A stretch of DNA of 35,324 nucleotides from an uncultured Chlorobiaceae bacterium (GTDB taxonomy: Bacteria > Bacteroidota > Chlorobiia > Chlorobiales > Chlorobiaceae), in contig CAJAJL010000109.1 in assembly GCA_903940125.1 (NCBI GenBank), forward strand, positions 1-35,324, in the 5' to 3' direction. Positions 15,033-29,189 of the stretch are shown piece by piece. The notes under the pieces were generated by a model. The model searched no databases. It was not told the DNA's origin and worked only from the letters and a program-made list of their open reading frames with translations. How positions within the stretch are numbered: position 1 is the first letter of the stretch; each line of letters opens with the position of its first letter. Position numbers and translations under genes: made by a program.

Positions 15033-15047
15033 AATGAGCCGTTTTTT

Positions 15048-15290
15048 CTATATTCTGGGATATGTCAGCCCATTATAAAAGGGATGTCGCTCTCTTAATC
15101 TAGTCAAGATTGCGTCGTCATCACCAGGAGTGATACCTTTAAATGTTGACTTAAAGGTTTCTATCGATGGGAGTTCAGATGTGCGTAATTGATCTGTATC
15201 TATACTTGGAGCACCCCTCACCTCGATCAAGTATTCTGCTCCATAGATCAAGGAAAATATTTGTTTAGTGTGATGGAACAATAGGTCCAA
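15048..15290 (-). CDS. Unidentified short reading frame, possible remnant
   Basis: An 80-codon minus-strand frame begins at TTG and contains YLIEVRGAPSIDTDQLRTSE and DDDAILTRLRERHPFY, which looks like protein rather than noise. There is no good ribosome binding site and I recognise no family. It overlaps the start of a plus-strand remnant at 15269. It may be the end of a longer gene that has been cut. Treat as tentative. Confidence 0.25.
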   Translation of the reverse strand: MDLLFHHTKQIFSLIYGAEYLIEVRGAPSIDTDQLRTSELPSIETFKSTFKGITPGDDDAILTRLRERHPFYNGLTYPRI

Positions 15291-15493
15291 TTCCGCAGGT
15301 TGGGGATGGAACTTTTCATTATGCGAAAGAGTTTGCGAAGCTCAAAGACCGTTTGTTAGGCAAAGAGGGGTGGGATGTGACCATATCTTCTTTTAGAGCG
15401 CGATATAATAATCTGATCGCCAATAAGAGTGAGGAGTGGCTTGAACGCGATGAAGGTTATGGTGGCATGCTTGCTGTCAATATTTTCAAATAG
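15269..15493 (+). pseudogene. Unidentified gene remnant (74 codons, no start)
   Basis: The frame is open from 15269 to a TAG at 15491-15493 and reads like the end of a real protein: GTIGPIPQVGDGTFHYAKEF, KLKDRLLGKEGWDVTISSF, then EEWLERDEGYGGMLAVNIFK. It lacks a start codon in a sensible place. No family is recognised. It lies in the 14.3-16.6 kb stretch of decayed genes and is probably a fragment of an accessory gene. Confidence 0.35.
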
Positions 15494-15571
15494 TTGAATT
15501 ATCTTGTGGAAGATGTATATACTGACTATCAGGGGGGCTTTGTAACGTCTTATTTTGTACCACAATAAATT

Positions 15572-15841
15572 TTGAATAGCCCTCAATTGCTATTGACAAC
15601 CTTGGACATGCAACGAGATCGAGCACTCAATATTATGAGCACCCCTAAAATGGAGCTTGAGCAGAGTTACCAGTTAAAAAAAGTTGGTATCTTCGGTTCT
15701 GTCGCCAGAAATTCTGCTCAAGGAACATTAAAGATGAGTTGGAGCAATTGCTTGGCAGCAAGGTTGACTTGATCGGGTATTGGAAAAGAATGAACACTTA
15801 CGCTCAAGGCTCGCATTGACTGGGAGGAATGTTGTGTATGA
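15572..15841 (+). pseudogene. MNT-type minimal nucleotidyltransferase (antitoxin) remnant, frameshifted
   Basis: The first frame contains LKKVGIFGSVARNSAQ, the GS-x-AR(G/N) signature of MNT nucleotidyltransferases that act as antitoxins (AMPylating or masking HEPN toxins). The expected Asp pair after it has been lost. A second frame then reads KDELEQLLGSKVDLIGYWKRMNT and a third reads LKARIDWEE to a TGA at 15839-15841, which is the usual end of the family. At least two frame breaks are needed, so the gene is dead. No HEPN partner gene remains next to it. Confidence 0.7.
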
Positions 15842-15904
15842 TGAATATTCAAAATAAGTTACGGTTTTGAAAAAACTTTTGATATAGCGAATGAAACTCT
15901 GCTG

Positions 15905-16153
15905 ATGCGTTATTCTCTTGAACTTAAACTGAGTGCGATTAAAGATTTAAAATCTTTAGATCGAAAAGAGGCATTACGGATAACCGAAAAATTAAAAGCA
16001 CTTGAAAACAATCTTTCAGGTAATGTTAAAAAGCTAACAAACTTTATTCCTGAATACCGTTTAAGAGCAGGAGACTATCGAGTGTTGTTTGGAGTTGAAG
16101 GTCAAAAAGTGATCGTTTATCGAATAAAACATAGAAAAGAGGCGTACCGATGA
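15905..16153 (+). CDS. RelE/ParE-family toxin
   Basis: This small basic protein of 82 residues has the RelE/ParE pattern: MRYSLELKLSAIKDLKSLDR at the start, an alpha-helical hairpin, then NVKKLTNFIPEYRLRAGDYRVLF and VIVYRIKHRKEAYR. The R-x-R-x-G-x-Y-R-V core and the C-terminal RIxHRKEAYR are typical of RelE-type mRNA interferases. It overlaps the antitoxin gene by four bases (ATGA), with the toxin first, the reverse of the commoner antitoxin-first order. The pair sits among decayed genes and appears to be the intact survivor there. Confidence 0.88.
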   Translation: MRYSLELKLSAIKDLKSLDRKEALRITEKLKALENNLSGNVKKLTNFIPEYRLRAGDYRVLFGVEGQKVIVYRIKHRKEAYR

Positions 16154-16368
16154 TTACCACTAAAAAAGCCATGCGACTTAATCCTCAGATTATAGAAAAA
16201 GGGGGAAAAAAAGAGTTTGTAGTTTTGCCCTATGAAGAATATCAGGCAATAGAAGAGCTGATGGAAGATTATATGGATCTGATTGATCTACGGGAAGCAA
16301 AAGCAGAAGGGCAGGGTCAACCATCTATACCCCTCGATGAGGTGATCAAGGAGCTGAAGAAAGGCTGA
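16150..16368 (+). CDS. Phd/YefM-family antitoxin
   Basis: The 72-residue acidic protein begins MITTKKAMRLNPQIIEKGGK and continues FVVLPYEEYQAIEELMEDY, the usual end of the Phd/YefM DNA-binding domain leading into the toxin-binding helix. LREAKAEGQGQPSIPLDEV and IKELKKG close it. The start overlaps the toxin stop by four bases, so translation is coupled. It is expected to neutralise the RelE-type toxin and, with it, to repress their shared promoter. The N-terminal repressor fold looks shortened compared with full YefM, so autoregulation may be weak. Confidence 0.82.
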   Translation: MITTKKAMRLNPQIIEKGGKKEFVVLPYEEYQAIEELMEDYMDLIDLREAKAEGQGQPSIPLDEVIKELKKG

Positions 16369-16394
16369 TATGCTTGCAGTGTGTGCGGTTTCCC

Positions 16395-16616
16395 TCATGC
16401 CATAAACTGCTTAAACATCCTTAAATCATTCTCAAACAGCAACAGTATATCGTCAATCTTGTACCGGAGCAGCACAGTGCGGTCAATGCCCATACCAAAG
16501 GCGTAGCAGGTGACGTCCACTTCGGCTGATGGTTCGGTGAAGGGGAAAAAGCTTGTGCGGAACCGGAGTTTGACGTCCGAGCCGGGGTTGCCGCTGGTGA
16601 CGAAAAAGGTATGGAC
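16395..16616 (-). pseudogene. pheS: 3' fragment of pheS with an in-frame internal deletion
   Basis: The 73-codon frame ends in the C-terminus of the phenylalanyl-tRNA synthetase alpha chain. It has [20 protein letters not shown] followed by EVDVTC, then jumps to [19 protein letters not shown] and [13 protein letters not shown]. In intact PheS the segment between VDVTC and AFGMG contains about 35-40 residues (a Cys-rich insert, then EIMGCGMVHP). All of that is missing with the frame kept. The 5' part of the gene is also gone, and a TAA at 16617-16619 closes the frame upstream. It cannot be functional. A complete pheS must exist elsewhere. Confidence 0.85.
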
Positions 16617-16767
16617 TTACAATTTCCTTCATGATGGAAAACATTAAACCTGCTCATTTTTTGAGCAAAAAAATTCTTTTTTCTTCATTGCCGGATATCC
16701 TCATGAGGTTATATTGTTGCATCTATCAACGTTTAACCGATAATAAATCTTAAGGTTTTTTGAAAGC

Positions 16768-16794
16768 GTAACTCTATAATAAAAAAAGAGTTAC
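16768..16794 (+). promoter_or_regulatory. Inverted repeat in the nrdJ leader around a TATAAT
   Basis: GTAACTCT at 16768-16775 is a perfect inverted copy of AGAGTTAC at 16787-16794, with an AT-only loop. A TATAAT at 16775-16780 overlaps the left arm, 50 bp ahead of the nrdJ start, so this could be a promoter with an operator over the -10 box. No good -35 is seen at the right distance. It does not match the NrdR-box pattern as I know it. Confidence 0.35.
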
Positions 16795-16830
16795 CTTTTC
16801 ATATTCCATATTTGACCCCGGAGAGTTCTC

Positions 16831-20365: not shown

Positions 20366-20611
20366 TCATCCGGCAACTCTATAGGTTTGGCCCATAGGCA
20401 GGAAGCCAGCAACATCCCCGCTTGCGAGTCGTGAACGGATATTATCGAACCATTCAATTGTCTCTTTCGAATACAACCTTTCGCCGCAATGGGTGCAAAT
20501 ATCAGCTTTTACTCTAACAACAGCCGTGTTGTTCCCCCCTAGAATCAATTTTTCAACCTCTTTTTCAATCATATCACCTCCGCATACCGGACATAGCTCA
20601 AACGGCATCAT
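20366..20611 (-). CDS. YgiT/MqsA-type zinc-finger antitoxin
   Basis: The start is at ATG 20611 (81 residues), because AAGGAG lies at the right distance ahead of it. It has two zinc-binding pairs, CPVCGG near residue 6 and CTHCGE near residue 38, joined by a beta hairpin (VEKLILGGNNTAVVRVKAD). This is the YgiT-type zinc finger used by MqsA antitoxins, without the C-terminal HTH domain. It ends in FLPMGQTYRVAG. It overlaps the toxin gene end by 14 bp on the same strand and should bind and block it. Confidence 0.87.
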   Translation of the reverse strand: MMPFELCPVCGGDMIEKEVEKLILGGNNTAVVRVKADICTHCGERLYSKETIEWFDNIRSRLASGDVAGFLPMGQTYRVAG

Positions 20612-20927
20612 TACTTTTTCTCCTTGTTTTCCATTCAATCCATCTTTCAGGATCTGGACGATAAACTGTTATTAACACAGTCCACGAGTTTTTTCTATTA
20701 TAAGCCCAAACGCTGTGTACGGGTTCTTTTTGAACATTATTTCCGAAAATCAAACAGCTTGGATAAGGCTTATCCGTGGGATAATGCTCAATTATTTCTC
20801 CATCGGCAACGCTCTCAATTACCTCTTCAAATGTCAAATTATCTGAAAGAGCCTCTTCGTATGCGTGATCTGTAATTCTGAACTTTTCATACCTTATTGC
20901 TTCGACGATCTCTTTCTTGAGCAGCAT
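20598..20927 (-). CDS. DUF4258-family toxin
   Basis: The 109-residue product has the DUF4258 pattern: FRITDHAYEEALSDNLTFEE at about residues 16-35, then GEIIEHYPTDKPYPSCLIFG and a C-terminal TVLITVYRPDPERWIEW. These proteins resemble RelE/BrnT-type mRNA interferases and pair with YgiT-type zinc-finger antitoxins, as here. The His of DHAYEE and the Arg/Tyr near the C-terminal end (YRPDPERW) are the likely catalytic residues. It precedes the antitoxin gene with overlap, so the pair is co-translated. RNA cleavage is a family expectation only. Confidence 0.85.
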   Translation of the reverse strand: MLLKKEIVEAIRYEKFRITDHAYEEALSDNLTFEEVIESVADGEIIEHYPTDKPYPSCLIFGNNVQKEPVHSVWAYNRKNSWTVLITVYRPDPERWIEWKTRRKSNDAV

Positions 20928-22016: not shown

Positions 22017-23192
22017 TCAAACCTTTCCCAAAGCCTCAACCAGCCACTCAAACCCAATCTTTTCCTGCTCCAGCCGGATTTGACCACCCAGCTCATTGCT
22101 GCGCAGCTGATCGTAGAGCGCACTCTCCTCATCGGTCAAACGCGTGAGGATGCCGGTTTCGGGAGATGGTTCAAAGCCCCAAAGCGTTCGATGCTCCATT
22201 AGCGTAGGACGGTCCATCAGAAGGGAAGCAGTATGGTGAAAGAACCCGCGCAACTGGTTAAGGATAGCGAAACCATGGGTGTCGATGTCTCCCCAGTAAT
22301 GGATCTTCCGGTCACGCAGCCACTCTACTGCCCCGAAGTTCTCAAAACCATAGCCAGCCCCGAAAATCACCATTCCCTGAGGAACCTGGGGGAAAGCCAG
22401 AAAGTTGATTTCATTCTCGGTGATAAACACCTTGTCAACTGGAATCTCCAGTCGGGCAAAGGTTGCCTGTGAAACCGTGATATCCTGGTCAGTCTCTGTC
22501 TGCAGTAGCGCCAGTTTCGGGTCAAGGATTCGGAAGCGCACCCGCAGGGGTTTGTCCCGAAAGCCATAACGACGGCAGAATCCTCCGGCTCCTGTGGCAG
22601 TTACATCGATCTCCTCCGATGGAAGGACGAGATCGAACAGCTCACCCAGCACACCTCGTTGACCTTCGATAAACTTGCTGTGTACTCCGGGCAAGTCAAT
22701 CTGTCGCAGATAGATGCCTGGTCGGGGATGCATCCGCAGCCAGTAGACGATTTCCAGCAGGCGTGGCCACTCTTCGGTCAGTTCGAGTGCGCGCAGGGGT
22801 CGTTTTGCCAGCCATGAGAGCAGTTCGGGTTGGTGGTCGCGGGTGAGTGCAACCATTGATGCAAACTGTTCGGCTCCCCGCCGCTTGCCAATCAACCCGA
22901 GAGCATCATCGAGTGAATCGATCCAGATTTCCGCCGGAATGTCATTGTTTCCCAGAATGCGATGATTGATGCTGCGCCATACAATCCGGTACTGTTTTGC
23001 GACGCCTGACAGTCGGGCAATCCAGTCACGGACATCGGTAAAAGAGTCGCTCAATTCCCTTGAGTCAGGCCCTTTCAGCGTCAAACGTCTGGGAAAAATC
23101 TCTTCACCGCTAATCAAAGAGGAAAGCAGGATGCCACGATCCCAGAGTTTCTGTAACTGTGCCTTGAGATCGGCAGGAGTTGTCCAGCTCAT
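22017..23192 (-). CDS. jetD: Wadjet protein JetD (Toprim-like nuclease subunit)
   Basis: JetD is the DNA-cleaving subunit of Wadjet, an SMC-type system that destroys small circular DNA. The N-terminal half (about residues 1-190) corresponds to DUF3322, with [20 protein letters not shown] and a basic region likely to bind DNA. The C-terminal half is DUF2220, a Toprim-like domain related to topoisomerase VI/Spo11. The acid residues of the metal site are visible: Glu at about 259 and 261 (FITENEINF), then Asp at about 302 and 304 ([12 protein letters not shown]). The length of 391 residues is normal. The ATG overlaps the jetC stop by four bases. All expected catalytic residues appear intact. Confidence 0.94.
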
Positions 23193-26100
23193 ACGAGTGC
23201 CTTCTCTTTTTCAGCGTAATACTCTTCGATGGTGAGGTTGCGCAACACCGAGCAGCGGCCCTCCTGATTGTGCACAAAACCGACACTGGAAACAAACGGC
23301 TCGATGATGTGGATTTTCTGTAACGGCGTAACAATCAGCAGTTGCAGGTTGAGCTGGGCGAAGAGTTGCAGGCCGTACTGGGCCGACTCATCGGAACCGC
23401 GACCAAAGGCCTCGTCGATGACAACGAAGCGGAAGGAGCGCGATCGAACCGCGCCCCATTCCAGACCGAATTGATAGGCAAGGCTGGCGGCAAGCACGGT
23501 ATAGGCAAGCTTCTCCTTCTGCCCTCCCGATTTGCCCCCCGAATCGGCGTAGTGTTCATGTTCGCTGTCGTCTTCGCGCCACCGTTCACTTGCGGCAAAC
23601 ACAAACCAGTTGCGCACATCGGTGACTTTGGCGCTCCAACGCCGATCGAGGTCAGCGTGCTCATCGCGACCACGGAAACGATCGATGATCCGTCGTACCT
23701 GCAGAAATTTTGCTTCGGAATATTGCGCGTCATCCGAGCCGGTCAGACTCCCTTCGGTGCAGGCGCGAAGCTCTGCCTGAAATTCACGGATGTCGGCATC
23801 AAGGTTCATTTGGGCTTCGAGGGTGATGTATCGACCGGGATTGAAGTCTATTTGAATGAGTGATTCATTGAGTCGGGTAATGCGCTCCTTTATCGTCTCG
23901 CGCTCGCGGGCCAGTTGTGACTGAAAATTGGCAACCTCACGGATGGTGTTTTCGTTGAGCAGATCCTTGAAGCGTCCCTCAAAGCGTGGCAGATCATCGG
24001 CACGGAGTTGTTCAAACATCGAACGATATTCAAATCCTGCGGCAATGTTGACATCCACCTCACGAGTTTCAAGTTTCCACTCCTCCTTGTATTCGGTCAT
24101 TGCCCTGATAATCTTTTCACTCAGTCGGGAGAGCTTCCTGTCCTCGACGTCGATCTTTGTTTGCAGCCAGTCACGCATCTTCCGCTCGTTATTGTCACAG
24201 GACTCAACCGTCAGCGTCTGATCGCCGAGAGCCTGAGTGCGCATGGCTTCAAGCATGGCAAAACGCCCGGCCGCTTCTGGCCCTGCTTCATCCAGCAGTG
24301 TACGTGTCTGTTGCTGCAACTCCCTGATGAGGCTGATTTTCTGCTCGATTTTCGATCGTTTATCCTTCCGATCGTCAAGTTGCCGCTCCGTTTCCTGCAG
24401 TTCCTTTTCCAATGCGGCAAGCTGTGCGACGAGGGTTTGCAGAATATTCGAGGTCGCCTCAAGGTCACGCTTTTCTGTTTCCAGCCTGGCGATCGCAAAT
24501 GCTACTGGCTGCCAGTCGAGATCGCGGAAATCCGGATACTCATCAAGTTTGGAGAGGATTGTCAGGCGCTCCTTGAGCGTTGTCTGCTCTTGCTGCAACG
24601 TACTGATACGACCTGCGAGTTCGGCAAGCTCTTGTTTCTGTCGCTGGGCATTCACTTCAAGCGCTGCGATTTTGGCAGCATTGCTCCATCCGAGTACGTA
24701 GCGGCTGCGGTCGTCAAGCCGGTGGCGGTCATCCTTTTCGTGGCGTTCACCCGGTGACTTGATTTGCCCGCCCAGGGTTATGGCTTTTTTCTCCCTCCGG
24801 AACTCCTCCTGGTTCATGCAGCAAACAAGATCGAAACGCCAGGCGATTTCCCGTTCCACCCACTCGAAATAAGGGGAATCGGCTTTAATGGCGAGCTTGC
24901 GGGCCAGCGAAGCCGGTTGCTCCGGCAACTGTTCGCTGCGAGAGTGCTGGCGTACCCGAAAATAGACCAGACGACCTTTCAAATTGGTTCGCTCCACCCA
25001 TTCCGCCACCTTCTGATAGTGATTGTCCGGTACCAGCAGCGAGAGGCCGAAGTTGCGGAGCACTCGTTCAATGGCGCCTTCCCATACCGCATCCTCCTCA
25101 CGAACCTGGAGCAACTCGCCTGCAAACGGCATCTCATCTTCAGCAATATTCAGCGCCTTACAGAGCGAGCGCCGCATGGCAACCTGTTTTTCGTCGATAT
25201 TGCTCATGCGGGCTTTCAACCCCTTGATCTCCGTGGTCAGTTGCTCATGCTCATGACGCCCCTGGGCAAAGAGTACACCCGTCTCATTGAGATCGTTTTG
25301 AACACGGGCTTCAGTTTCAGCCGTTGCCTCATGTATGGCTGAATGCCCGGTACGTTGAAGATGAAACTCCTCAGCATTCGTTGCAGGAAGCTCCCCAAGC
25401 TGGCGTGCAAGTTCTCCATATCGGGTTGCTTTCTGATTGCGCCGTTTAAGATCGTCCTGTTTCTGTCGAATCTCAGCGGCGATACTCTCAATCCGGTCAC
25501 CGCCGTTTTCGGCGATGGTTCGGCGCAGCTCACGATCACGCCCTTGCTGGGTGCGGCGGTCACCTTCAAGTTGTTCGATGGCGATATGGTGACGGCTCAA
25601 CTCTTCATCAAGCGAGGTATGTCGCTTTTCCAGCAATGCAAGCTTGAGGGAGGCAAACCAGGGGCGCAGGGTATCGCGCGAAGCCCGCAACGCTTCCGCT
25701 GTTCGAGCCAGGGTTTGGTGATTGTCGCAATCAGCCACCAGAGGCCCCAGCATCTCTATTTGTCGCTTCGCTTTGAGGACAGCTTCGTGTGCGCGGTTGA
25801 GATCCTCGAAATGCTGGATAAGGGCGTCAATGCGCGGCTCAACATTGAACGGTTCGAGCATGTGGCTGCGTACGAAATCAGTCAGGTTTCCCACTGACTT
25901 GAGCGATACAGTTTGATGGAAGAGATCAAGTGCCTGCTCATTGTCAATGCCGAAGCGCCGACGGAACCAGGCGCCGTAAGGTGGAAAGCTTTCAAACAGG
26001 TCGATTCCAGACCCGCGCAGACGCCGGCGCAGTGTCGCTATTTCGGTACCAAATGCTGAAAAATCGGTGGCGATGGAGAGGTCGCGCTCACAGACGGCAT

Positions 26101-26557
26101 AAAGACGGGCTGGCTGTGTGGCATCCTTCATCCAGAAAATTTGTGCCAGGGTTACGGTCTTGTCGTATCCTTCGTTATGAAAGACACCGAGAATGACTGA
26201 ATAACTGTTGGGTTCACGCAGGGCGACCGGTTTGGCTCCACCTCCAAGAGTTTCCTGGCGTTCCGACTTGAAATAACCGAGCACGTAAGAGCGCAGGGTG
26301 CGTTCACGGTTATCTGCTCCAGCCGCCTTGTTGTAGGCAATGCGCTGGCTTGGCACCAGCAAGGTAGTTACGGCATCGACCAGCGTTGATTTTCCGGAAC
26401 CGATATCCCCCGTGAGGAGTCCATTTTTTCCGCCCAGTCGTAACGTCCAGACTCGTCCATCAAAGGTGCCCCAGTTGAACACCTCAAGACGCTGCAGTCG
26501 AAAGCCAGCCAGGCTGTCATCACCAATAAATCCAAGTTCAAGTGCCTCACTCATCAT
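23189..26557 (-). CDS. jetC: Wadjet protein JetC (SMC-like ATPase)
   Basis: JetC is the motor subunit, related to MukB/MksB, that dimerises and extrudes DNA loops. The 1122-residue protein starts with an ATPase head, with Walker [10 protein letters not shown] at residues 50-58 (AAA_29-type P-loop). Long coiled-coil arms follow (about residues 270-960), rich in Glu/Arg/Leu and interrupted by a hinge-like globular part near residues 470-620. The C-terminal head has the signature [20 protein letters not shown], then Walker [13 protein letters not shown]. Its start overlaps the jetB stop by 11 bp, and its stop overlaps the jetD start by four. No frameshift or missing motif is seen. Confidence 0.96.
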
Positions 26558-27182
26558 TCCCCTCCATCAGTTTCGCAGGTCGCTGCAAGTATTCGTTGAG
26601 GCGTTGATCAAAATCAGCCAGCCACTGGGCATCGATAAACGCCTTGATAATCCGGCGCACCTCAATCATCTGCCGCTCTCCCCGCAAACGGCGGATAAAG
26701 CCAAGATCTGCGATTTTATTCAGTGTGGCATCGACCTGGTCGATCAACTTGACCTCATTGCTGGCGGCGGGAAGAAAAATCCTGATCAGTTCAACCACCT
26801 CATCCCGCGAAAGAATCAGGCGTGTGTCTCCGGCACCGGCATCAAATTCGGCAAGTTTTTTGCGAAGCAGTGCCAGCAGCAGGCTGACCGGGTAACTGAG
26901 TTGCCTTCTTGCTATCAGTCTGGGAGTGGTGTTCGTAACTTCTGCGCCGATTTCAGAGTGAGATCGCAAAAAAGCGTATCCTTCTGCCTCATCAATAATC
27001 AATTCCAGACCAAGCACCGCAACGTAATCCCGAACGCTAGCCAGCAGGTTGAGCAAAGCGCTCCATAACGCCGGGTTCTCCTCCTGGTAGATCACCCCCT
27101 TCAAAAGGGGAATCACAATGGAAGAGAGTTCCTGGACTGGATAAGCCGGACGGGAAGGTTCTATCTCTGTATGGTTCATCAT
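26547..27182 (-). CDS. jetB: Wadjet protein JetB (KITE-like subunit, DUF4194)
   Basis: JetB is the winged-helix KITE subunit that, with JetA, bridges the JetC heads, similar to MukE/MksE. The likely start is ATG 27182, whose A is the last base of the jetA stop (TGATG), giving 211 residues; the following ATG at 27179 is also possible. The core reads [20 protein letters not shown], then [15 protein letters not shown] and [17 protein letters not shown], matching DUF4194. It ends with [20 protein letters not shown]. An upstream GTG/TTG in frame would lengthen it into jetA but lacks support. The stop overlaps jetC by 11 bp. Confidence 0.93.
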
Positions 27183-28627
27183 CAGTTTCTTAATAAAATA
27201 ATACGCGGCAAGGTTGCAACCCGGGATATACCCGTTGCGCTTTCCCACCTTACCTCTTCCTGCTCTCTTTCATCCACTGCGCTCTTGGGCCAATCCCCGG
27301 CAAGCTGCATATAGGCAACCAGCTCGGCAAGGCCGTTACGCAGTGGATGATGCAGAATAACCTCCCCGATGGTGATCTGGCTCCGCATCTGCAGTTCCTG
27401 GCGGATATTTCGCAACAGCTCGGCCCGGTCAACCACCACCTGTGCGTAAAGAACAGCGGTATCGATCTCCGCATCACCCTCATCCAGAGCAATGCCGGCA
27501 ATCAAGGGCTTGAATGGAGGCCGATAGAGTGCTCTTTCAAGAGGCAGTTCAATGACCGCCGCGGAGCTGTCGAGAGGCATGAAGCCGCCTGAAGGGAGAT
27601 CGTCGCGCAAATCAAGAGCATGGGTTTCAACCTCGTGCAGAATATCCATGATGCGTCGATTTTCAAGCCATGCTTTGTCATCGAGAAACCTGCGCAACTG
27701 TTCTGAAAGTCGGGCTACCGTGCGCTGGGTGTGTTCCCCCGCCTCAAGCCAGTCGTAGTGGACGCGCCGCAAACGAGTATCGGGGCGCATCGAGACAATC
27801 GGCGGCAAGGCCAGCACCTCTTCCAGGAGCAGGCTCAACTCCTCCTGGCGGGACTGCGACATAAGAAAATCCCAGAATGCACGGAAACTCTTCCCCTGAT
27901 CCGAATCGGCAATGGCATCACGTTCACCCATTATCTCTTCAAGCAGCGCTCCCTTGGCTCCCTCCCAGAGGGCAATGCGCTCACGCACGCGGCGATCAAG
28001 TGTGCGAAAGTTATGCTCCACCTCGCGAAAATCAGTTAACAATTCACGAGCCAGTTGCAGAAACTGCTGAAAACGATCCTTCAGGGCTGTATCATCGAGC
28101 AGTGATATCTCACCGGCAAGGATGCGGGCAATTTCTGCATTAATGTCGTCACGGCGCTTTTGCAGCTCCGCAATCCGCACTTCAGGATCAGCCTGGCTAC
28201 CCATGCTCATCTGACGCAACAGTTCAAACAGGGTCAGAAGTCGCGACTCTGTTCCCACAAAAGCACGTTCAGTCAGGCTTTCCAGCCAGGCCAGCGCCTT
28301 TTCAGTTGCAGCTGTCAGATCAAAGTGAGGCTCATCCGTACCGTCGGGATAGAATTTGCGCAGCCATCCCTTCTCGTTATCAGCCCAGTCATTCAGATAG
28401 CTTTGCGCTGTACCGGGAAACTGGTCGGCTCCCTGTTGCTGCCGCAAGGCAAACAGTTCATCTTCCAGCGCCTCAACAAGATCAGCCTGCGAGAGGATCC
28501 GCACATTGGGTACAATAAAGACCCGATGCAGAAAACCAGCCACCAACGGCGCATGCTGAGCGCACAACAATCGCCAGGCAGGGTGGTTCTGACGGAGCAG
28601 GTTCAGGGTCGTGTAGTCGAGGGCCAA
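27182..28627 (-). CDS. jetA: Wadjet protein JetA (kleisin-like subunit, DUF3375)
   Basis: JetA is the kleisin-like subunit (MukF/MksF-related) that joins JetC heads and binds JetB. The N-terminal DUF3375 hallmark is visible: LRQNHPAWRLLCAQHAPLVA and FLHRVFIVPNVRILSQ, then LVEALEDELFALRQQ and WADNEKGWLRKFYPDG. A middle helical part (about residues 165-260) and a C-terminal winged-helix region (IIGE-like ITIGEVILHHPLRNG) follow. I use TTG at 28627 because family proteins begin close to LDYTTL. No ribosome binding site precedes it, and the frame is open further upstream to about 28690, so the true start may be elsewhere. It is first in the jetABCD operon. Intact catalytic partners suggest a working system. 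Confidence 0.93.
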   Translation of the reverse strand: MALDYTTLNLLRQNHPAWRLLCAQHAPLVAGFLHRVFIVPNVRILSQADLVEALEDELFALRQQQGADQFPGTAQSYLNDWADNEKGWLRKFYPDGTDEPHFDLTAATEKALAWLESLTERAFVGTESRLLTLFELLRQMSMGSQADPEVRIAELQKRRDDINAEIARILAGEISLLDDTALKDRFQQFLQLARELLTDFREVEHNFRTLDRRVRERIALWEGAKGALLEEIMGERDAIADSDQGKSFRAFWDFLMSQSRQEELSLLLEEVLALPPIVSMRPDTRLRRVHYDWLEAGEHTQRTVARLSEQLRRFLDDKAWLENRRIMDILHEVETHALDLRDDLPSGGFMPLDSSAAVIELPLERALYRPPFKPLIAGIALDEGDAEIDTAVLYAQVVVDRAELLRNIRQELQMRSQITIGEVILHHPLRNGLAELVAYMQLAGDWPKSAVDEREQEEVRWESATGISRVATLPRIILLRN

Positions 28628-28734
28628 AAGTGCACTATTGATTTCTGGTGGAAAAAGTGCCGCCGGAAGCGGGCTGGATTTGAGGCTGAAGTTAAAGCTT
28701 TTTCTCCGTTTATTTCGATTGCTTTTTTTCCGTT

Positions 28735-28917
28735 CTCAATTCCATGGTGCTCCAACTTTTCCGCTGCGTTGAGCGTGATGTTAATGAGACCACGGCGCAA
28801 ACCGAACTCGTTGCAGCAATCCGTCAGAGCACGGAGCTCCCGGTGTCGGGTTTTTGAATCGCTGATGGTCGCGCTTTTATAAAGGTTTTTTTCTTCGCCA
28901 GGAAAAAAGAATATCAG
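28735..28917 (-). pseudogene. 3' remnant of a DUF4143-type AAA ATPase gene
   Basis: A frame directly behind the ParD-like gene reads FFFPGEEKNLYKSATISDSK, then TRHRELRALTDCCNEFGLRR and GLINITLNAAEKLEHHGIE. This is the C-terminal segment of ATP-binding proteins with a DUF4143 nuclease-like end (usual form: TRxRELRALxDACxEFGL...EHxGI). After HHGIE the similarity ends, and the frame continues through unrelated codons to a stop at 28603 inside jetA. The ATPase domain and start are missing. The break marks a recombination joint on the upstream side of the Wadjet operon. Confidence 0.72.
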
Positions 28918-29189
28918 ATTTCTTCTTTTTCCTGAAAAGAACGGTCAAACAATTCGGTATAACTTTCGAGATGCCCTTCTGGTACAAATGGTGTTGAGTG
29001 CGACTTTCCCTCTGCCCTGGCAACCAGAAGATCCCGAACAAAATCAATTGGCAAATCTGGATTGTCCAGAGCTGCCCGTCCTATCTTCGCCCAAAACTCA
29101 ATTTGTCCAGCAATGGTACGATGCTCGGCCTTAGCCTGAGCTCTTGCTTGTCCATATAAGGTATCATCTATTCGTACTGGCATTCCCAT
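28914..29189 (-). CDS. ParD-like antitoxin
   Basis: The 91-residue protein matches ParD-like antitoxins (pfam ParD_like): MGMPVRIDDTLYGQARAQAK is the ribbon-helix-helix start, then AEHRTIAGQIEFWAKIGRAA and LDNPDLPIDFVRDLL, with a charged end that would bind the toxin. The first ATG has GGAG seven bases upstream. No toxin gene follows. The space downstream holds only the decayed ATPase end, so this is an orphan. The inverted repeat at 29213-29226, just ahead of the start, may be its own operator. Confidence 0.85.
   Translation of the reverse strand: MGMPVRIDDTLYGQARAQAKAEHRTIAGQIEFWAKIGRAALDNPDLPIDFVRDLLVARAEGKSHSTPFVPEGHLESYTELFDRSFQEKEEI

Follow-up and report, generated by a model that had tools for sequence, protein, structure and literature searches.

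A predicted type I Wadjet operon, jetABCD, in a Chlorobium-lineage genome and its variation among relatives

Introduction

Do four overlapping genes in the genome of an uncultured green sulfur bacterium encode a plasmid-restricting Wadjet system, or do they form a chromosome-organising condensin, a silent relic or a recently arrived defence island? The genes lie in a window of 35,324 nucleotides, by which we mean the whole stretch of DNA that was analysed. If they encode Wadjet, a well-studied system of SMC-based plasmid restriction gains green sulfur bacteria, a group mostly known from metagenome-assembled genomes (MAGs), as hosts, and it could affect plasmid uptake in Chlorobium. None of the papers in the literature searched named both Chlorobium and Wadjet.

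Results

Identity and integrity of the operon

The sequence-only reading of the window had proposed a type I Wadjet system in the canonical A-B-C-D order in a probable green sulfur bacterium. The host is indeed a Chlorobium-lineage MAG, and the ORF listing and translation give four overlapping minus-strand ORFs at 22017-28627:

27182..28627, minus strand: jetA, kleisin-like subunit (DUF3375), 481 aa, TTG start; PADLOC JetA1 (PDLC00457) 6e-223, Pfam DUF3375 1e-158, PDB JetA 8dk1_A 1e-26
26547..27182, minus strand: jetB, KITE/MukE-like subunit (DUF4194), ~211 aa from the ATG at 27182; PADLOC JetB1 7e-89, Pfam DUF4194 7e-46, PDB JetB 8dk1_E 2e-9
23189..26557, minus strand: jetC, SMC-like ATPase, 1122 aa; PADLOC JetC1 E = 0, 1650 bits, PDB JetC 8as8_A 2.5e-63
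22017..23192, minus strand: jetD, CAP-Toprim nuclease subunit (DUF3322 and JetD_C), 391 aa; PADLOC JetD1 1e-154, Pfam

The profile search suggested by that reading thus returned type I Jet models for all four genes in the proposed order, and the matches of JetA, JetC and JetD are nearly full-length. All four proteins also match the Pfam families expected for JetABCD. Four full-length profile matches in this order are far beyond chance.

The junctions had been read as TGATG, an 11-bp overlap and ATGA, and this is how they stand in the sequence. The jetA/jetB junction is CTGATGATG, in which the jetA stop overlaps the jetB ATG at 27182; jetB and jetC overlap by 11 bp, and jetC and jetD by the 4 bp of ATGA. 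A longer jetB ORF could be read from a GTG at 27248. As the extension holds a stop in several relatives, this GTG is an unlikely start, and the ATG at 27182 is the likely one.

The host genome has one intact copy of jetABCD, with no internal stop in any of the four genes. Against relatives beyond the closest sister, dN/dS was 0.02-0.09 for jetA, 0.06-0.11 for jetC, 0.12-0.18 for jetD and 0.08-0.24 for jetB, for which one further value of 0.35 was obtained at very low dS; the differences of jetC and jetD from the nearest sister were too few for an informative ratio. All four genes are under purifying selection.

The ATPase motifs of JetC, claimed to be intact, were all located in the translation: Walker A at residue 50 (K56), the signature SGGQKEK at 1010-1016 and Walker B (VVIDEAF) at 1045 (D1048/E1049). 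JetC matches the Pfam families AAA_29 and SbcC_Walker_B. The operon is an ordinary intact member of the known Wadjet family and, judging its function by homology, it is very probably a complete and functional type I system.

The active site of JetD

The AlphaFold2 model of JetD (pLDDT 90.7) matched the structures of MksG (8b7f, 2.9e-21) and of JetD from P. aeruginosa PA14 (7til, 1.2e-15). The search of PDB sequences likewise placed the C. glutamicum MksG first (5e-20), followed by the JetD proteins of PA14 and E. coli.

For the examination of the active site, 27 diverse JetD proteins were aligned, from Chlorobium, Desulfobacterota, Acidithiobacillus and Bacteroidota as well as from plasmids of Actinomycetota and Pseudomonadota. 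R163, K173, E259, D302, D304, E375 and E377 are invariant among them. The sequence-only reading had named Glu 259/261 and Asp 302/304 as the Toprim acids. All of these residues are present, and E259, D302 and D304 hold as invariant, so the substitution of metal-site acids that would have spoken against the system did not occur; position 261, however, is occupied by K, L, I or Q in many other JetDs, and E261 is not a conserved metal acid.

The metal ligands of MksG are E236 and D279, and its active site also holds Y258, with E349 and E351 as alternative nucleophiles; R156 and K166 have been proposed to bind DNA (PMC10123090). The alignments relate these residues to the JetD of the window as follows: R156 to R163, K166 to K173, E236 to E259, Y258 to Y281, D279 to D302, E349 to E375 and E351 to E377. 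E259 also corresponds to E248 of the E. coli JetD.

The tyrosine of MksG has been stated as not conserved in JetD (PMC10123090). Position 281 is nevertheless Tyr in the window, whereas it is Leu in the JetD proteins of E. coli GF4-3 and PA14. Among the JetDs examined, Tyr is also found in those of Chlorobium, Desulfobacterota, Acidithiobacillus and Obscuribacterales and in the plasmid-borne ones of Thiodictyon, Arthrobacter, Streptomyces and Nocardia; five Bacteroidota have Phe, and the remaining plasmid JetDs Ala, Leu or Trp. This lineage is type I by profile, with a nuclease that is MksG-like, the tyrosine included. Y281 may have a catalytic role.

An alternative is that the locus is an MksBEF-type condensin that organises the chromosome, with a dispensable or unrelated fourth gene. 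JetB also matches Pfam MksE (8.6e-22), and the MksBEF of P. aeruginosa acts in chromosome segregation (PMC10586767). However, the NCBI equivalog model of MksE gave 21 bits against a cut-off of 400, and a nuclease subunit is present: JetD, whose gene overlaps jetC and evolves under purifying selection, is full-length, and its Toprim site is invariant. Roughly one quarter to one third of the genus also lacks the system, as would not be expected of a housekeeping condensin. We therefore regard a condensin as extremely improbable and retain the type I Wadjet assignment.

Comparison with known systems and the proposed mechanism

The type I Wadjet systems of E. coli GF4-3 and P. aeruginosa PA14 (8as8, 8q72, 8dk1-3, 7til) have the same four subunits in the same A-B-C-D order, the SMC ATPase motifs and a JetD of the CAP-Toprim type that shares the E and D residues, although it is only ~20% identical to that of the window. 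The MksG (8b7f) of the actinobacterial C. glutamicum MksBEFG is the closest solved relative of the window JetD by both sequence and fold, whereas the PDB searches with JetA, JetB and JetC led to the E. coli and Pseudomonas proteins. Also among the closest known systems are those of other Chlorobium genomes, Desulfuromonas sp. AUK168 and Desulfogranum japonicum, which have the same operon and a JetC 72-100% identical to that of the window.

By analogy with the systems of GF4-3 and PA14, JetA (kleisin), JetB (KITE) and JetC (SMC ATPase) would assemble into a dimer-of-dimers loop extruder. On a small circular DNA, extrusion would run to completion and activate the CAP-Toprim dimer of JetD, which would then cut both strands, and incoming plasmids below ~50-100 kb would be lost. 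This mechanism and the size limit have been described in a review (PMC10586767); loop extrusion, shape sensing, cleavage and plasmid restriction by the system of the window are all inferred from those two systems.

The JetB of PA14 carries an IFDR motif, reported for this system only, which contacts JetD (PMC10586767). The JetB of the window has a short N-terminal tail, and the motif is absent from it and from the JetB proteins of 28 relatives. Because of this, the contact between JetD and JetABC probably differs in detail from that of PA14. IFDR was not taken as defining type I Wadjet.

The region upstream of jetA

The region upstream of jetA holds the following features:

28628..28729, minus strand: conserved ~100-nt jetA leader (blastn of the intergenic region against the loci, and alignment)
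28660..28672, minus strand: terminator-like hairpin CCGCTTCCGGCGG with CACTTTTT (U-tract), ~33 nt before the jetA start
28739..28872, minus strand: 3'-terminal remnant of an AAA_14/DUF4143 ATPase gene, with the ParD-like gene on one side and jetA on the other
28914..29189, minus strand: orphan ParD-like antitoxin gene, upstream of jetA; Pfam ParD_like 2.5e-25

These features bear on the possibility that the operon is a transcriptionally silent relic, in which intact genes go unexpressed owing to the hairpin, the TTG start and insertions upstream. A consensus search found no sigma-70-type promoter upstream of jetA, and the hairpin with its U-tract stands between any upstream promoter and the gene. 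No obvious ribosome site precedes the TTG, and the ATPase remnant, a 134-bp blastn match (76-84%) to ATPase genes close to the corresponding position in relatives, lies immediately upstream. Together with the lack of IFDR in JetB and of a recognised promoter, the hairpin and the TTG without an obvious ribosome site are points against a functional operon.

On the other hand, the TTG start is supported by an ATG at the same codon in five sister loci, and dN/dS is low in all four genes. The leader is conserved across the genus and is retained even ahead of deletion-scar copies in relatives; the Rfam search matched it to no RNA family. The hairpin is kept in most sister leaders, with a changed sequence in two of them (L035/L037). 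It is not significant alone, as two terminator-like sites were found in the region and 1.5 were expected by shuffling, and it could be an attenuator or mark where an upstream transcript ends. The exchange of intact jetA-jetB sequence described below also suggests continued use. A silent relic is thus very unlikely, and an expressed Wadjet operon remains the reading that we prefer.

In relatives, the ParD-like gene also separates jetB from jetC or immediately precedes jetC. A probable toxin-antitoxin pair lies at 20366-20927 of the window, where a gene for a DUF4258 protein is followed by one for a weakly MqsA-antitoxin-like protein.

Distribution, GC content and origin

Among 48 good Chlorobium genomes, jetC was found in 35 and jetA in 33; elsewhere in the phylum, relatives are uncommon. 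The trees of JetC and JetA agree: the Chlorobiaceae are monophyletic, Desulfuromonas AUK168 and Desulfogranum stand next to them, and the Bacteroidota homologues are very distant. The trees suggest that Chlorobiaceae acquired the system by an old transfer, either from Desulfobacterota of the sulfur cycle or shared with them.

The operon had been judged by eye to be richer in GC than its neighbours, and the measured values (54.4%, and 46.6% for the window outside the operon) bear this out. A GC content of this kind might mark a recently acquired mobile defence island. The loci of the Chlorobium sisters, Desulfogranum and Desulfuromonadales have the same offset, so that the raised GC is no sign of recent arrival, and a recent foreign origin on this ground was rejected. 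The locus is also syntenic in many species, with ftsE on one side and the FMN reductase gene on the other: it lies beside one or both of these genes in the window, the sister and many relatives, and elsewhere in some species. The monophyly of JetC within Chlorobiaceae likewise speaks against a recent island, for which there is thus very little probability, and an old acquisition appears the better account.

The purple sulfur bacterium Candidatus Thiodictyon syntrophicum carries a complete operon of the same Wadjet subgroup on a plasmid of 485 kb (L117, NZ_CP020372.1), where it adjoins a locus with a methyltransferase and a helicase. At 15033-16830, the window has ~1.8 kb of AT-rich DNA (39-41% GC) without a long gene-like ORF, located between an SNase-like gene and a B12-dependent ribonucleotide reductase gene; the Rfam search gave no match in it.

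Recombination within the operon

The comparison of the operon with that of the sister genome L077 revealed one further feature:

26569..28103, minus strand: recombination tract, made up of jetB and the 3' half of jetA, which differs from the sister genome L077

Of the 136 differences between the two operons, 93 fall in 1.56 kb (Fisher p 1.6e-29), and 92 lie within 1500 bp, whereas none of 2000 random placements gave more than 51. On both sides of the tract, the window and the sister are ~98-100% identical. The jetB sites of the window mostly match those of L045, with a jetB dS of 0.049 to L045 and 0.178 to L046. We conclude that recombination has exchanged this tract of ~1.5 kb, the recipient being either the window or L077.

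Split operons and jet fragments in relatives

While the copy in the window is contiguous, other genes separate jetB from jetC in ~10 Chlorobium genomes; by contig position, jetB is directly joined to jetC in ~26. These counts are approximate, as the split loci come from MAG assemblies of several studies, in which contig breaks at repeated jet fragments are frequent. In five genomes, jetAB and jetCD stand apart on one contig, at distances of ~0.9 kb (G209), 2.2 kb (G048), 6.8 kb (G208), 12 kb (G117) and 30 kb (G185). In five others (G222, G227, G230, G231 and G232), they lie on separate contigs, and the side facing the junction is occupied by other genes.

The inserts encode ParD-like and other small proteins as well as kinase-like, HEAT-repeat-like, PLD-like and viperin-model-matching ones. 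The JetC and JetD of the split loci keep low dN/dS. A tentative reading, possible but rather doubtful, is that jetAB (kleisin and KITE) and jetCD (motor and nuclease) might be exchangeable modules that recombine separately, as in the ~1.5 kb jetA-jetB tract of the window, and are carried apart in the ~10 related genomes, and that the split systems might work in trans. The relatives pose two points that can be tested: whether the MksG-like tyrosine has a part in cleavage, and whether jetAB and jetCD can function kilobases apart. The split loci, L060, L062, L063, L065 and L071 among them, have toxin-antitoxin and candidate defence genes as the separators.

Several loci have an ORF of 81-83 aa before jetC that joins JetA residues 1-50 in frame with the last ~30 residues of JetB. 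It lies directly upstream of jetC at L027:7756-8004, L031:3581-3832, L034:7759-8004 and L040:853-1104. A functional mini JetA-JetB fusion in the split relatives was considered and rejected: although five loci have the ORF open, its copies differ with a dN/dS of 0.37-0.83, against 0.07-0.50 at the same codons among full-length genes. The ORF therefore seems to be the scar of a deletion, with constraint on it relaxed.

At L023:13393-13569, L028:13482-13667, L039:13360-13536 and L058:2997-3167, the final ~59 codons of jetD are present a second time, ~0.8-1.3 kb downstream of the intact gene. This copy resembles the scar of a duplication or of an integration into the 3' end of the gene. L064 (G185:C33) and L042 show an array in which several jetC-jetD pairs and fragments share a contig, and G185:C33 carries three copies of jetD.
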